DNA of 64,000 bases from Bacillus sp. 123MFChir2. GTDB taxonomy: Bacteria > Bacillota > Bacilli > Bacillales > Bacillaceae_G. Position 1 is the stretch's first letter, and each line of letters begins with the position of its first letter. The position numbers and the translations under genes are program-made. The stretch lies in NCBI RefSeq assembly GCF_000383235.1, contig NZ_KB910940.1, positions 1 to 64,000 on the forward strand. The letters run 5' to 3'. Positions 20,250-23,511 of the stretch are shown here, in pieces. Under the pieces are notes generated by a model, which made no database searches, had not been told where the DNA came from, and was given only the letters and a program-made list of their open reading frames with translations.

Positions 20250-20286
20250 AAAAACGTCAGCATGATAATAGGCTGACGTTTTTTCT
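20250..20286. terminator. Bidirectional terminator between yfkD and yfkAB
   Basis: AAAACGTCAGC, loop, GCTGACGTTTTTT lies between convergent genes. Confidence 0.8.
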
Positions 20287-21476
20287 TATAACGTGATGTT
20301 TGATTGTTTTGTTAAGAAATTTTCTGTTGGATAATAACTATTTTTTACAAGAATGTTTGGTCCAAGGCATTTTACAGCTGGACAATGGCAGCTTAAGTCT
20401 TTTGCTGTTTTTGAGGCGCTCCACTTGTCATAAGCTTCTTGCAGTGTATTCGTTTGGACATTTCCAAGCATTGGAACGTCACCGAAATCTGTAACAATAA
20501 TACTGCCGTCAAAAATATTTACATTTAAGCGAGAACGACCGTCAGGGTCATTACGTACTGTTACATTTTTACTTGTGTGCAGCTTTTTGAATACTTCTAA
20601 ATCACGTTCGTCATCGCTGCATGCATAGAATGGCAATGTTCCAAATAACATCCAGACATTTTCATCACGAACATCGAGAAGGTGTGAAATGGCACTGCGA
20701 ATTTCCTCTTTCGTTAAAATTTCAAGATTTTTAGCGAAGTCACTTGGATATATGTTTTGTAATGAATCCTTCATCTCAGGAGAATCTGTCATACTAACAA
20801 ATCCACTATCATACATAGGATGAATCTCATGCCTTTTACAGCCCATTTCCTCTACTACCTGCTTATGAATCTTTTCTAAGTGAGGTACTGTCCTACTATT
20901 TAGCATTGTCTCAGCAGATACTAAAACTCCCATATCAGATAGAGCCTTAGAGTTACTTATCATCCTGTCAAATAATGCTTTTCTTTGCTCTCTAGTAGGC
21001 TTTCTTTCCATCATAGCAAAGCCTGTATCTATAAACTCATCCTCTGTTACCCAGTTATGAGAGATATGTAATACATCTAAATAGGGAGCTATGAGCTTAT
21101 ATCTGTCTAGGTCTAATGTTAGGTTAGAATTTATCTGAGTATAAATGCCTCTCTCATTAGCATATTTCAATAGTGGTAATACATAGTTTTCTACTGACTT
21201 TAAGGACATCATAGGCTCTCCACCTGTAATGCTCATAGTCCTCAATGTAGAAACCTCATCTAATCTTTGCAGTAATAGCTCTAGAGGTAATGCCTCAGAG
21301 TCCTTAGTTACAAGAGTATGTCCTACAGCACAATGTCTACATCTCATATTACAGAGGTGAGTGGTAGTAAATTCAATACTGGATAGAGTTGTTTTACCAT
21401 ACTTCTTTACATCTAGATAAGCCTCCCAAGCATCATTTTGGGGAGTGCTGTTAGATTTGATTATTTGTTTATTCAT
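20286..21476 (-). CDS. yfkAB: Radical SAM protein YfkAB, hybrid of element-encoded 5' part and host 3' part
   Basis: This radical SAM enzyme of 396 residues has CNMRCRHC (~43-50, 4Fe-4S), SITGGEPMMS (~83-92) and a C-terminal Cys-rich SCHCPAVKC tail; its reaction is unknown. The gene is a chimera. Codons 1-242 are element-borne and use GAG, AGG and CTA-type codons like the recombinase. Codons 243-396 (from 20750 down) have normal host usage. Residues 223-242 are a 20-aa insertion between HPMY and YPSDFA. The host remnant at 23411 ends ...HEVHSMY, which joins directly to YPSDFA, showing that the insertion is a scar. The start ATG has GGAG upstream and an element-borne promoter. Confidence 0.88.
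   Translation of the reverse strand: MNKQIIKSNSTPQNDAWEAYLDVKKYGKTTLSSIEFTTTHLCNMRCRHCAVGHTLVTKDSEALPLELLLQRLDEVSTLRTMSITGGEPMMSLKSVENYVLPLLKYANERGIYTQINSNLTLDLDRYKLIAPYLDVLHISHNWVTEDEFIDTGFAMMERKPTREQRKALFDRMISNSKALSDMGVLVSAETMLNSRTVPHLEKIHKQVVEEMGCKRHEIHPMYDSGFVSMTDSPEMKDSLQNIYPSDFAKNLEILTKEEIRSAISHLLDVRDENVWMLFGTLPFYACSDDERDLEVFKKLHTSKNVTVRNDPDGRSRLNVNIFDGSIIVTDFGDVPMLGNVQTNTLQEAYDKWSASKTAKDLSCHCPAVKCLGPNILVKNSYYPTENFLTKQSNITL
20735..20766 (-). other. attL junction (element | host yfkAB 3' part)
   Basis: On the minus strand ATTACAAAACATA (element) leads into TATCCAAGTGACTTC (host). The host arm contains ACTTC, which pairs as an inverted arm with GAAGT at attR. Confidence 0.7.
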
Positions 21477-21508
21477 GTCAATTACTCCAATCTTATTAGT
21501 ACCTCATT

Positions 21509-21538
21509 ATTATGAGAAGTTGGTATAACTTATGTCAA
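21509..21538 (-). promoter_or_regulatory. Element-borne promoter for yfkAB
   Basis: On the minus strand a perfect -35 TTGACA (21533-21538) is followed after 18 bases by CATAAT (21509-21514). Transcription would start about 25 bases before the yfkAB ribosome site. The spacer holds AAGTT-ATACC-AACTT, a small inverted repeat. Confidence 0.65.
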
Positions 21539-21568
21539 TGTAAATGCCTTTATATATCACCTAAAGAC

Positions 21569-21603
21569 AAAAAATAGCCTCAAACCATTACAGGCTCAAG
21601 GCT
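21569..21603 (-). terminator. Terminator between recombinase and yfkAB
   Basis: On the minus strand AGCCTTGAGCC pairs with GGTTTGAGGCT (three wobble pairs), followed by ATTTTTTG. It insulates yfkAB from recombinase transcription. Confidence 0.65.
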
Positions 21604-21786
21604 TTTCTAATCAGCTTATCAATGTCAAGCTTACCTATTTCTGTTACAATAACTCCTTTATCAGTAACTGTAATATTATCAGGCTGAGGAGAGTAGCTCT
21701 AGTATTTTTTATCTTGATGTAAGTAATTCCTAGTAATTATTTTTGGCAAAGGGAAAAATAAAAGAGCCAGTGCATCAGCATCCTAC
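21588..21786 (-). pseudogene. Decayed short ORF in the recombinase element
   Basis: A frame without its own start, with one in-frame TAG at 21699-21701, ends ...DNITVTDKGVIVTEIGKLDI and DKLIRKALSL before the stop. It may be the tail of a lost cargo or phage gene. I recognise no family. Its last bases form part of the terminator stem. Confidence 0.35.
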
Positions 21787-21794
21787 TCAATCTC

Positions 21795-23330
21795 TTACAA
21801 GGTATCTCTGTATTCTATTCTAATCTCAAATGGTTGAGATTTGCCAACTCTGTCTGATTGCTCTTTCCAATAGTAGACCTTATCAATAACCTCAAGTAAG
21901 AGGCTATTAGCCTTTGTAGGATTAGCATTAGTATCCATTGACAAGAGTATCTCAATCTTTTTCTTAATCTTTTTATGCTTGTCTACCTCAGACTTAGCAT
22001 CAGCTCCATCTATACCCTTTAGCTCCTGCTGTATCTTTAGCTGTTGCTCCTTAATGTCCTTAATAATGTCCATAGCCTCATCCTCATTATCCTCATAAAA
22101 GCCTTTTCTAACCATCTCTAAGACTTTCTTTCTTTCCTGCTCTAGCTTGTTATGCTGTAGAGTCAGCTCCTGCTGTTTATTAGCTACAGAGGATAGAAAG
22201 GATGTATCCCCTGCTACAATTGACTCAATCCTTACATCTAGGTCAGTAAGGTGCTCTCTGAGCTTAATAAAGACAGCCTCCTCAACTCTAGAGGCTTTAG
22301 TAGCATTATTAGAGCATCTTTTTCCTGTAAATTCCTGCTTAGCTCTCTGAGACATAGAGGAGTAACAGTTAAGGAGGTACAGCTCTCTTTCATCCTTATT
22401 AAGAGTCTTTCTAGATGACCTGCTAACATATTTGTTACAAAAGGATAATGTTTGATGACACTTAGGACATTCTAGCAATCTAGACAAGGTATACACTCCT
22501 CTTTGTAACTTTTGAGGTACTTTCCTTTTGTCTGCTCTGATTAACTGAGCCTTATTCCATGTATCAGCATCTACTAAAGCAGGATGAGCCTCCTCTACAG
22601 TTATAGGATCCTCTCCTTGTAGCTCATAATGTACAATCCCTCTGTAAGCTACATTGGATAGGATAAGGGAGGTAGCTCTAGGAGTAAATGCTTTGCCTGA
22701 CCTTGTTACAATCCCTCTCAGAGTTAATTGCTCACATATCTCAGCCTGATTTAATCCATCAGTAACATACATCCTGTAAATATCCTCTACAGTCTTAGCC
22801 TCAGCAGGATGAGGGAGGAGATGCTTATCATCATCTTTTGAATAGCCATAAGGAGCAATACCAAAATACACTCCCTTTTGAATAGCCTGTATTCTTCCTC
22901 TCCTTAGCTTTCTCTTAGTCATCCTCATGAAATGGTTATCCATCTCTGACTGCATACCTGAAACAAATATGTCATCATCATTCATAAAGTTATAAGTCTT
23001 ATTCAAGGTAAAGAGCTGTAAAGCCTCAGCTTTGGCAAACCTTTGAAACAACCCAAAATCTGTCCTATCTCTTGTCAATCTGTCTTGGTCAGTCACTAGG
23101 ACTCCATCATAAATATTTCTTTTCAGCTCCATGAGCATCTTTTGTAGCTCAGCTCTACCATACCAATCCTCTGAGCTACCTTCCTCAGAGAATACTTCAT
23201 AGTCCATGTTATTTTTTTCTGCATAGTCAGTCAGTAGCTCAAGTTGTCTGTCAATCTCAATAGCATCAGCATCCTTTAACCTTGACTTTCTGACATAAAT
23301 GCAGACTTTCTTTTTTGAAACTTTTGCCAT
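21795..23330 (-). CDS. Large serine recombinase (site-specific integrase)
   Basis: The 511-residue protein shows the full large-serine-recombinase layout. The resolvase domain (~8-150) has Ser16 in YVRKSR and the arginines in DQDRLTRDR. The recombinase domain (~165-270) includes GIAPYGYSKDD and TLRGIVTRSGKAFT. A zinc ribbon has CPKC near 300 and the later Cys pair in LNCYSS and KRCSN. A coiled coil spans ~390-450. It would integrate and excise the surrounding element by recombining att sites. GGAGGGAG lies 9 bases before ATG and a TATAAT -10 at 23368-23373. Codon use differs from the neighbouring host genes and matches the 5' part of yfkAB. Confidence 0.9.
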   Translation of the reverse strand: MAKVSKKKVCIYVRKSRLKDADAIEIDRQLELLTDYAEKNNMDYEVFSEEGSSEDWYGRAELQKMLMELKRNIYDGVLVTDQDRLTRDRTDFGLFQRFAKAEALQLFTLNKTYNFMNDDDIFVSGMQSEMDNHFMRMTKRKLRRGRIQAIQKGVYFGIAPYGYSKDDDKHLLPHPAEAKTVEDIYRMYVTDGLNQAEICEQLTLRGIVTRSGKAFTPRATSLILSNVAYRGIVHYELQGEDPITVEEAHPALVDADTWNKAQLIRADKRKVPQKLQRGVYTLSRLLECPKCHQTLSFCNKYVSRSSRKTLNKDERELYLLNCYSSMSQRAKQEFTGKRCSNNATKASRVEEAVFIKLREHLTDLDVRIESIVAGDTSFLSSVANKQQELTLQHNKLEQERKKVLEMVRKGFYEDNEDEAMDIIKDIKEQQLKIQQELKGIDGADAKSEVDKHKKIKKKIEILLSMDTNANPTKANSLLLEVIDKVYYWKEQSDRVGKSQPFEIRIEYRDTL

Positions 23331-23395
23331 CTCCTTAGCTCCCTCCTGATAATATTGTTTAAATCCTATTATAGCAGGGAATTAGAAAGTGGCGA

Positions 23396-23430
23396 TATTT
23401 ATTACAAAGTATACATTGAATGTACTTCAT
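23396..23430 (-). other. attR junction (host yfkAB 5' remnant | element)
   Basis: On the minus strand GAAGTACATTCAATG (host) leads into TATACTTTGTAATAAA (element). The element arm TTTGTAA mirrors TTACAAA at attL. Confidence 0.7.
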
Positions 23431-23511
23431 GACATTTACAAACCATCTCTTCAAGGTCCATATAATCCCATAAGAAGGAGTGATCGGCTTCATTTTTTGT
23501 GATGTATTCAT
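23411..23511 (-). pseudogene. yfkAB: Displaced, internally deleted 5' end of host yfkAB
   Basis: An ATG at 23511, with GGAGT 9 bases upstream, starts MNTSQKMKPITPSY (to 23470), a plausible native YfkAB N-terminus. The frame then breaks; in the next frame LEEMVCKCHEVHSMY follows to 23411. This parallels VEEMGCKRHEIHPMY of the intact protein (residues 208-222). About 190 codons between the two pieces are deleted, and Cys/Ser replacements show decay. The native promoter and ribosome site now read into the recombinase gene. Confidence 0.72.

Follow-up and report, generated by a model that had tools for sequence, protein, structure and literature searches.

In the 64,000-nucleotide stretch of Bacillus sp. 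123MFChir2 analysed here (contig NZ_KB910940.1, positions 1 to 64,000; referred to as the window), the gene yfkAB contains an integrated element, and the present gene is a chimera of a front half brought by the element and a back half from the host. Probably, this element is a stripped copy of an integrative family that rebuilds yfkAB, and the poverty of its DNA in the dinucleotide CG (CpG) would be due to selection of the restriction type. At the level of sequence, the chimera is shown by its letters, its reading frame and its retained cluster-binding motif, and we infer that the chimeric YfkAB is active as an enzyme. Comparison genomes and sequence records are cited below by handles beginning with G and L, respectively.

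A chimeric yfkAB beside a large serine recombinase

The chimeric gene (20286..21476, minus strand, as are all its parts) is open and encodes 396 amino acids, which score 610 bits against TIGR04478 of NCBIfam (cut-off, 250). Alignment with native genes divides it into three parts. Codons 1–222 (20811..21476), supplied by the element, form the radical SAM half with the CxxxCxxC motif (Pfam domain at residues 38–186) and contain zero CpG. A linker of 21 codons (DSGFVSMTDSPEMKDSLQNIY, 20748..20810) follows, which is absent from natives and is the translated attachment arm of the element. The host-derived 3' part (20286..20747) carries the YfkB-like domain PF08756 from residue 242 (242–391). Native genes read HE(V/I)HPMY-(P/A)SDFA without a break in eight natives and, by motif, in 27 of 28 further rows; the 28th (L095) is also uninterrupted, with a mismatched motif. 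The window chimera reads HEIHPMY-DSGFVSMTDSPEMKDSLQNIY-PSDFA, 21 residues more than the natives. The contiguous yfkAB that had been expected at empty sites was thus seen in 35 native rows, all from other species.

On the same strand, an open reading frame of 511 amino acids (21795..23330, zero CpG) has a Resolvase domain (PF00239) followed by a Recombinase domain (PF07508) in Pfam, the domain order of a large serine recombinase. The catalytic serine of these enzymes sits in an N-terminal YxRxS motif, and residues Y12, R14 and S16 were invariant in 14 sequences; the matched stretch was open, with zero internal stops, in 14/14. Both genes announced by the original prediction, a recombinase and an open hybrid yfkAB, are therefore present, and the element edges that it proposed were accurate to a few bases. 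From crossover to crossover, the element occupies 20751..23413 (no strand assigned), as defined by the hybrid and displaced junctions against uninterrupted natives, with a CpG-free run at 20736–23392. The left crossover core is ATATAT (20748..20753, minus strand), of which TAT at 20748–20750 is common to the right side, the crossover point being placed by eye. The right core is ATGTAT (23411..23416, minus strand), followed by the element arm ACTTTGTAATAAAT; similar arms were found by eye in G010, G002, G001, G007 and G008.

The 5' end of the host gene lies on the far side of the element, as had been claimed, but only 98 bp of it are left (23414..23511, minus strand): by blastn to natives, codons 1 to about 22 are joined to codons about 209–222, and roughly 187 codons are deleted. 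Among the 13 other genomes with a recombinase (see below), four retain large native-type 5' pieces: G010 and G007 have them on the other side of the element, and G001 and G002 carry them on a second contig. Decayed bits of the host 5' end occur in G003, G008 and, by eye, G006, where a deletion joins the start codons to the crossover much as in the window (also by eye); in the remaining six of 13, no host 5' piece was recognised. The natives and the displaced copies of these four genomes support the earlier claim that the element brings, in frame, about 60% of the gene together with its start and ribosome site. The promoter, which was part of the same claim, is only likely to be supplied by the element: the predicted site TTGACA-N18-CATAAT ahead of the chimeric gene (21509..21538, minus strand) matches at 11/12 positions, two promoter-like sites were found in the region against 1.9 in shuffled sequence, and about 63 bp 5' of the chimeric yfkAB are conserved between elements.

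A scan of genome contigs yielded ten related recombinases (61–78% identity) in records under nine genus names. A draw of whole genomes brought in two more, G180 and G224 (10/397 genomes at 1e-80, eight already known), and a second draw added G573 (3/193 genomes, two already known). A chimeric yfkAB with the linker adjoins the recombinase in 13/13 cases outside the window, and at least one of yfkD, SE1561 and fumA is kept as a neighbour in 11/13; none of them was found in G003 and G008 in the stretches read. The recombinase points away from yfkAB in 12 genomes and is codirectional with it only in the window and G008. The G008 locus is a mosaic (L053, 8254–11366), in which a CpG-free 5' half 93% like that of the window stands beside a recombinase of 63% identity with 77 CpG, in the orientation of the window. 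In G007 and G180, genes that look by eye like IS3-type transposases (L052, 9893–10978; L066, 7794–8952) lie between the recombinase and the far element end.

Five chimeras (G056, G097, which is more divergent, G345, G372 and G561) had no recombinase match at E<=1e-80, and G345 retains a recombinase remnant of 49 residues. The chimera persists where the element decays. Of eight chimeras newly met in two yfkAB draws, three have the recombinase (G180, G224 and G573). In the family of G008, 161/193 genomes had a YfkAB match at 1e-40 and four of the matches look chimeric by score and span, which served to split chimeras from natives in these draws; 26 of the other matches in this family were later checked by motif. 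In the family of G379 (19 genomes), zero recombinases were found at 1e-60, in a search run without a known positive as control. The G345 locus itself (L112, 9089–9377) is an element in decay, with remnants of a recombinase C-terminus and, by eye, of a small resolvase beside the chimeric yfkAB.

The two parts of the gene have different histories. Compared with 18 chimeras, the first 222 codons of the window gene have 73–93% nucleotide identity and the 3' part has 60–67%, while fumA has 70–75% in the 15 chimeric genomes in which it was read. When a tree is built from the 5' half, one side of a branch (Shimodaira–Hasegawa-like approximate likelihood ratio support, 99.4) holds 19 chimeras and the other holds 35 native rows plus three displaced copies; L095 was excluded for its motif mismatch, and L078 and L103 are the same gene. 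In seven pairs, the synonymous divergence (dS) of the recombinase is 0.27–0.97 and the ratio of nonsynonymous to synonymous divergence (dN/dS) is 0.06–0.19. For the yfkAB 3' part, six of these pairs are saturated in dS and the seventh has 1.48. From the unlike ages of the halves together with these dS and dN/dS values, it follows that both the recombinase and the half-gene have crossed from genus to genus and have been kept by selection; the movement between genera is shown by identity and dS, measures taken from sequence comparison.

In our reading, the large serine recombinase of an element family found in Bacillaceae-type genomes inserts the element into yfkAB where the radical SAM half gives way to the YfkB half, after about codon 222. 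With the element come a start region and, as codons 1–222, about 60% of the gene. Its attachment arm, translated in frame, serves as the linker, which has 21 residues here and fewer in some members, so that integration yields a complete chimeric gene in one step. The host 5' end left on the far side decays, and loss of the element would presumably become costly. A structure model of the chimera (predicted template modelling score, 0.79; mean predicted local distance difference test score, pLDDT, 75), built from an alignment of 23 rows, places residues 226–250 at pLDDT below 50 between two better domains, and residues 41–58 at the cluster-binding motif are also weak. This model allows, and does not prove, that the linker, which lies where the radical SAM domain meets the YfkB domain, forms a loop.

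Around the element, the genes are yfkE- and yfkD-like on one side and a small SE1561-like gene, fumA and pdaA on the other. Scans of the window with Rfam (gathering cut-offs) and for tRNA genes gave zero matches.

Near-absence of CpG and scarcity of other short words

The element contains one CpG in 2,661 bp, while 294 overlapping flank windows of equal length contain 58–136 (58–135 in 281 windows clear of the site). The longest CpG-free run of the whole window is that of the element, and the runner-up has 333 bp. The recombinase gene and yfkAB codons 1–222 use zero CGN and zero NCG codons, the 318 bp of intergenic DNA in the element have zero CpG, and the loss is seen in all codon phases and between genes. 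When the proteins were back-translated with host codons (2,000 draws), the mean CpG number was 64 for the recombinase (minimum 43) and 26 for the yfkAB 5' half (minimum 12), against zero observed for both, while the 3' part had 18 observed and 18 expected. The original prediction had reported that the recombinase and the front of yfkAB share a codon style foreign to the 3' part. The log ratio per codon of recombinase against host style is +0.23 for codons 1–222, which exceeds all 48 equal-length host segments and all 34 host genes; the 3' part has −0.41, within the range of 79 host segments. The difference in style was therefore seen rightly, and the equality of the two parts that would have spoken against it was not found, but the near-complete loss of CpG behind the style had gone unrecognised.

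The same character is found in most relatives. Among 14 recombinase genes, CpG numbers zero in five and 1–4 in five, and among 19 chimeric 5' halves it numbers zero in ten, one in four and 3–11 in five. The cargo of the larger islands of G001 and G002 (15,150 bp; described below) contains 15 CpG against 476 expected from composition, together with GATC 8 against 48, GGCC 1 against 15 and GGWCC 0 against 10; the CpG-free stretches of G001 have zero GATC. In pooled low-CpG stretches (41,920 bp), GGCC occurs once against 47 expected, GGWCC 0 against 30, GATC 16 against 141, GAATTC and GATATC 0 against 14 each, CCWGG 5 against 30, and GCWGC 6 against about 70 by the flank ratio. The five chimeras that have no recombinase match are not in this pool, nor are G006, G008, G010 and G224. 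The ends of its stretches were set by CpG-free runs, which favours low CpG; the per-gene CpG table and the cargo counts of G001, G002 and G010 were not selected by CpG. The low numbers of GGCC, GGWCC and GATC suggest restriction. As for CpG itself, the data suggest selection by restriction-type defences acting on unmodified DNA that arrives in new hosts, a cause that we favour though it is unproven and is the weakest step of our reading. Since CpG is near zero while the recombinase dS reaches about 1, it appears to have been kept out and not merely inherited. Two phage stretches and a plasmid stretch with relatives of the replication-like gene of the G001 island were considered as the source of the composition and ruled out by their high CpG.

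The most serious rival, which we nevertheless regard as unlikely, is that CpG was lost by mutation, the CpG methylation or extreme composition of a former host having stamped the element. DNA can carry the composition of a long-term host, and the loss at the DNA level, in every codon phase and between genes, fits this idea. In addition, the 12.9 kb cargo of G010 (L042, 4262–17111) is low in restriction-type words (GATC 15 against 43, GGCC 6 against 15, GGWCC 1 against 9), with normal CpG (497 against 434), so that the two losses are separable and CpG may need its own cause. Deamination, however, predicts TG/CA, and at native CpG positions the low-CpG chimeras read TG/CA in only 113/490 cells and AG/CT in 263/490 (14 of the 19 chimeras, those with <=1 CpG, and seven natives). 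NCG positions read NCT in 100 cases against NCA in 34, a count in which the direction of change is not inferred, and the element shows no excess of TG (1.01; flank, 1.08) or of CA (1.10 in both). CpG numbers of 0–4 in ten recombinases with pairwise dS up to about 1 also argue against a stamp from the past. A separate cause of the CpG loss might be a past mutational regime, a single agent that reads CG, or a multitude of enzymes whose sites contain CG.

Several observations weigh against selection on restriction words, or against our reading of the locus as a whole. The normal CpG of the G010 cargo, given above, is one of them, and CpG is high in the recombinase genes of G008 (77) and G010 (62), with 21 in G224 and 17 in G006. 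CTAG, AGCT, TTAA and CATG are not depleted (in pool and/or cargo counts; CTAG, TTAA and CATG are normal in the cargo of G001 and G002). Homologous genes from 11 genomes recur in the pool, so its word counts are not independent, and the window element alone is too short for words of 4–6 bp (0.3–8.7 expected for the scarce ones). The native genes used for comparison all belong to species other than that of the window, the closest match to its fumA region being 80% among 397 genomes of the order, and the 56-amino-acid open reading frame at the island end, treated below, gave zero matches against the PDB.

Larger islands and the size of the window element

Relatives of the element include larger islands. 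That of G010 spans about 15 kb and encodes a resolvase, an MrcB-HNH protein and a GmrSD-like protein, the last below the Pfam cut-off. The G001 island, on two contigs, has a small resolvase directly behind the recombinase, a replication-like gene (32–33% identity to Bacillus phages 268TH002 and phi18-2) and further genes, and the G002 island has a resolvase and matches to the PDC-M68 defence models. The defence-like cargo of G002 (L046, 1–4401) is CpG-free and comprises PADLOC matches to PDC-M68A and PDC-M68B (HNH-like, DUF2326) and an unmatched protein of 290 residues. No structural or conjugation gene was recognised among 16 island proteins searched against one to four libraries each, the G001 and G002 islands being split over contigs so that parts may be unseen; of prophage or conjugation genes, the window element holds none, only the recombinase, an end-gene remnant and the yfkAB half.

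That remnant bears on the size of the window element, which the original prediction had taken as a 2.66 kb unit with no other cargo. Positions 21569..21689 (minus strand) correspond to the far end of the G001 island (87.6% nucleotide identity to L043:12249-12369) and hold, by reading frame, the C-terminal half of a small end gene (C-terminus ..VTEIGKLDIDKLIRKALSL), its N-terminus being lost. The end gene (50–56 amino acids) is intact in G001, G009 and G010. Compared with the islands, the segment that runs from the recombinase to the end gene lies the other way round in the window, and the intervening cargo is lost. Because the truncated end gene is kept and the interior is inverted, the small size is most likely secondary: the unit is not clearly a minimal element and resembles what a larger island, such as that of about 15 kb in G010, would leave once its cargo was stripped and its interior inverted. 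SPbeta has a small directionality factor, and the end gene, judged by its size and place, could be a candidate for such an excision factor; with it truncated, the window copy would probably be locked in. A terminator-like hairpin with a T tail lies at 21576..21603 (minus strand; one found against 0.2 in shuffles). Near the inversion boundary, the −35 box TTGACATAAG of the promoter-like site resembles the inverted island attachment arm CTTATGTCA (positions 21509–21538 and 23411–23430 of the window).

It is rather improbable, on this evidence, that the 2.66 kb unit is a complete mobile element consisting only of a recombinase and a gene-rebuilding arm. Both crossover cores with element-specific arms are present, the matched recombinase stretch is open in all 14 sequences and the recombinase is under purifying selection, and the window copy is almost CpG-free and so has arrived recently or is still selected. 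Short forms also exist in G003, G004, G005, G006, G224 and G573, with 68–625 bp from the recombinase to the next gene or yfkAB remnant. Against this stand not only the end gene, the inversion and the larger islands of G001, G002 and G010, but also small-resolvase remnants recognised by eye in G004, G009 and G345, which point to cargo loss. It is very improbable that the recombinase is a domesticated switch, which reversibly inverts or excises DNA to alter yfkAB: its purifying selection and its orientation in the window and G008, opposite to the 12 others, would suit a switch, but the displaced 5' end of the window is broken, so excision would leave no whole gene, and a second attachment pair is not shown. 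That the linker-bearing yfkAB is simply a variant inherited in the ordinary way, with the recombinase as a chance neighbour, as the five chimeras without a recombinase match might suggest, is scarcely credible in view of the displaced native-type 5' copies in the same genomes, the 13/13 recombinases at yfkAB, the unlike histories of the two halves and the G345 remnant.

A stripped copy of a yfkAB-rebuilding family thus remains the preferred reading. A broader proposal is tentative and may well fail in part. The family would survive by two linked means: it would capture over half of yfkAB and rebuild the gene through the translated arm, and it would keep its DNA, including the cargo, almost devoid of CpG and several restriction sites even as divergence among its recombinases reaches about a third. 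Unmodified DNA could then pass from genus to genus, and a widespread defence acting on CpG would be the selecting agent.

Comparison with known systems

The locus indicates how an internal site of a conserved gene can be invaded without breaking the gene, the element carrying the front half and its arm becoming a linker at a domain boundary. The near-absence of CG suggests long travel between different bacteria under DNA-cutting defences, and its near-total removal in hosts with normal CpG raises a testable question on DNA defence or mutation in these bacteria. The CpG-free run outlines the window element to about 20 bases, and similar elements should therefore be findable by composition alone. 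Restriction-target avoidance is stronger in small plasmids of broad host range, and their targets are lost by mutation, according to PMC10359461; those targets are of 4–6 bp and the word CpG is absent from that text, whereas here a dinucleotide is nearly absent over kilobases.

Known large serine recombinases are only distantly similar to that of the window. YokA/SprA of SPbeta is of the same class, and YokA is the best PDB profile match (123.5 bits), but YokA-type phage integrases have 23–27% identity to the window recombinase and another target. CcrB of SCC elements, likewise a large serine recombinase, is the best NCBIfam match at 103.8 bits, far below its cut-off of 900, and it also has another target: Ccr/SCC elements insert at rlmH, while 14/14 recombinases including that of the window are at yfkAB. 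In phage and plasmid collections, recombinase matches were all below 60% identity (142 and 29 records), and below 30% among the matches listed (40 and 20 rows). In IMG/VR, no recombinase match was confirmed; five YfkAB matches there were distant fragments (27–43%) and were not used. In titles and the openings of abstracts, a scope that leaves out most subscription journals, we found neither a Bacillaceae element at yfkAB nor a bacterial element free of CpG.

As a target, yfkAB itself has a precedent. According to PMC11852059, the S. aureus phage phiSA169 uses yfkAB, which gains a new start codon after integration; phiSA169 and its relatives resemble the window element in target and new start. 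Two further Staphylococcus phages, phiST9-A (L011) and phiSabovST1 (L012), differ in having yfkAB without the linker and normal CpG. Their integrases are annotated 'integrase' and 'xerC', and we take them to be of the tyrosine type. With another integrase type beside yfkAB in these two phages, the gene has served as an integration target on at least two occasions.

The original prediction had stated that target restoration occurs mostly at 3' ends, which understates the precedent at 5' ends. The replacement made by SXT at prfC is far shorter than that made by the window element. The comparison with the integrative and conjugative element SXT draws on PMC8409611 and PMC4489591: both SXT at prfC and IMEVchUSA3 at dusA supply a promoter and an N-terminus (PMC8409611), and the window element, with its in-frame 5' coding sequence and start, is of this prfC/dusA type. 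SXT differs in being conjugative and about 100 kb long (PMC2654960). The closest likeness is to IMEVchUSA3 and the dusA elements, which insert in the 5' part of their target, supply promoter and in-frame N-terminus and, in IMEVchUSA3, change the first 35 residues of the dusA product (PMC8409611). Set against the dusA elements as described there, the window element has 222 codons and a 21-residue linker, a serine recombinase and near-zero CpG. Rebuilding of a 5' end is itself known; what is new in comparison with dusA is a replacement six times longer than 35 residues, a linker in frame and DNA that is nearly free of CpG.

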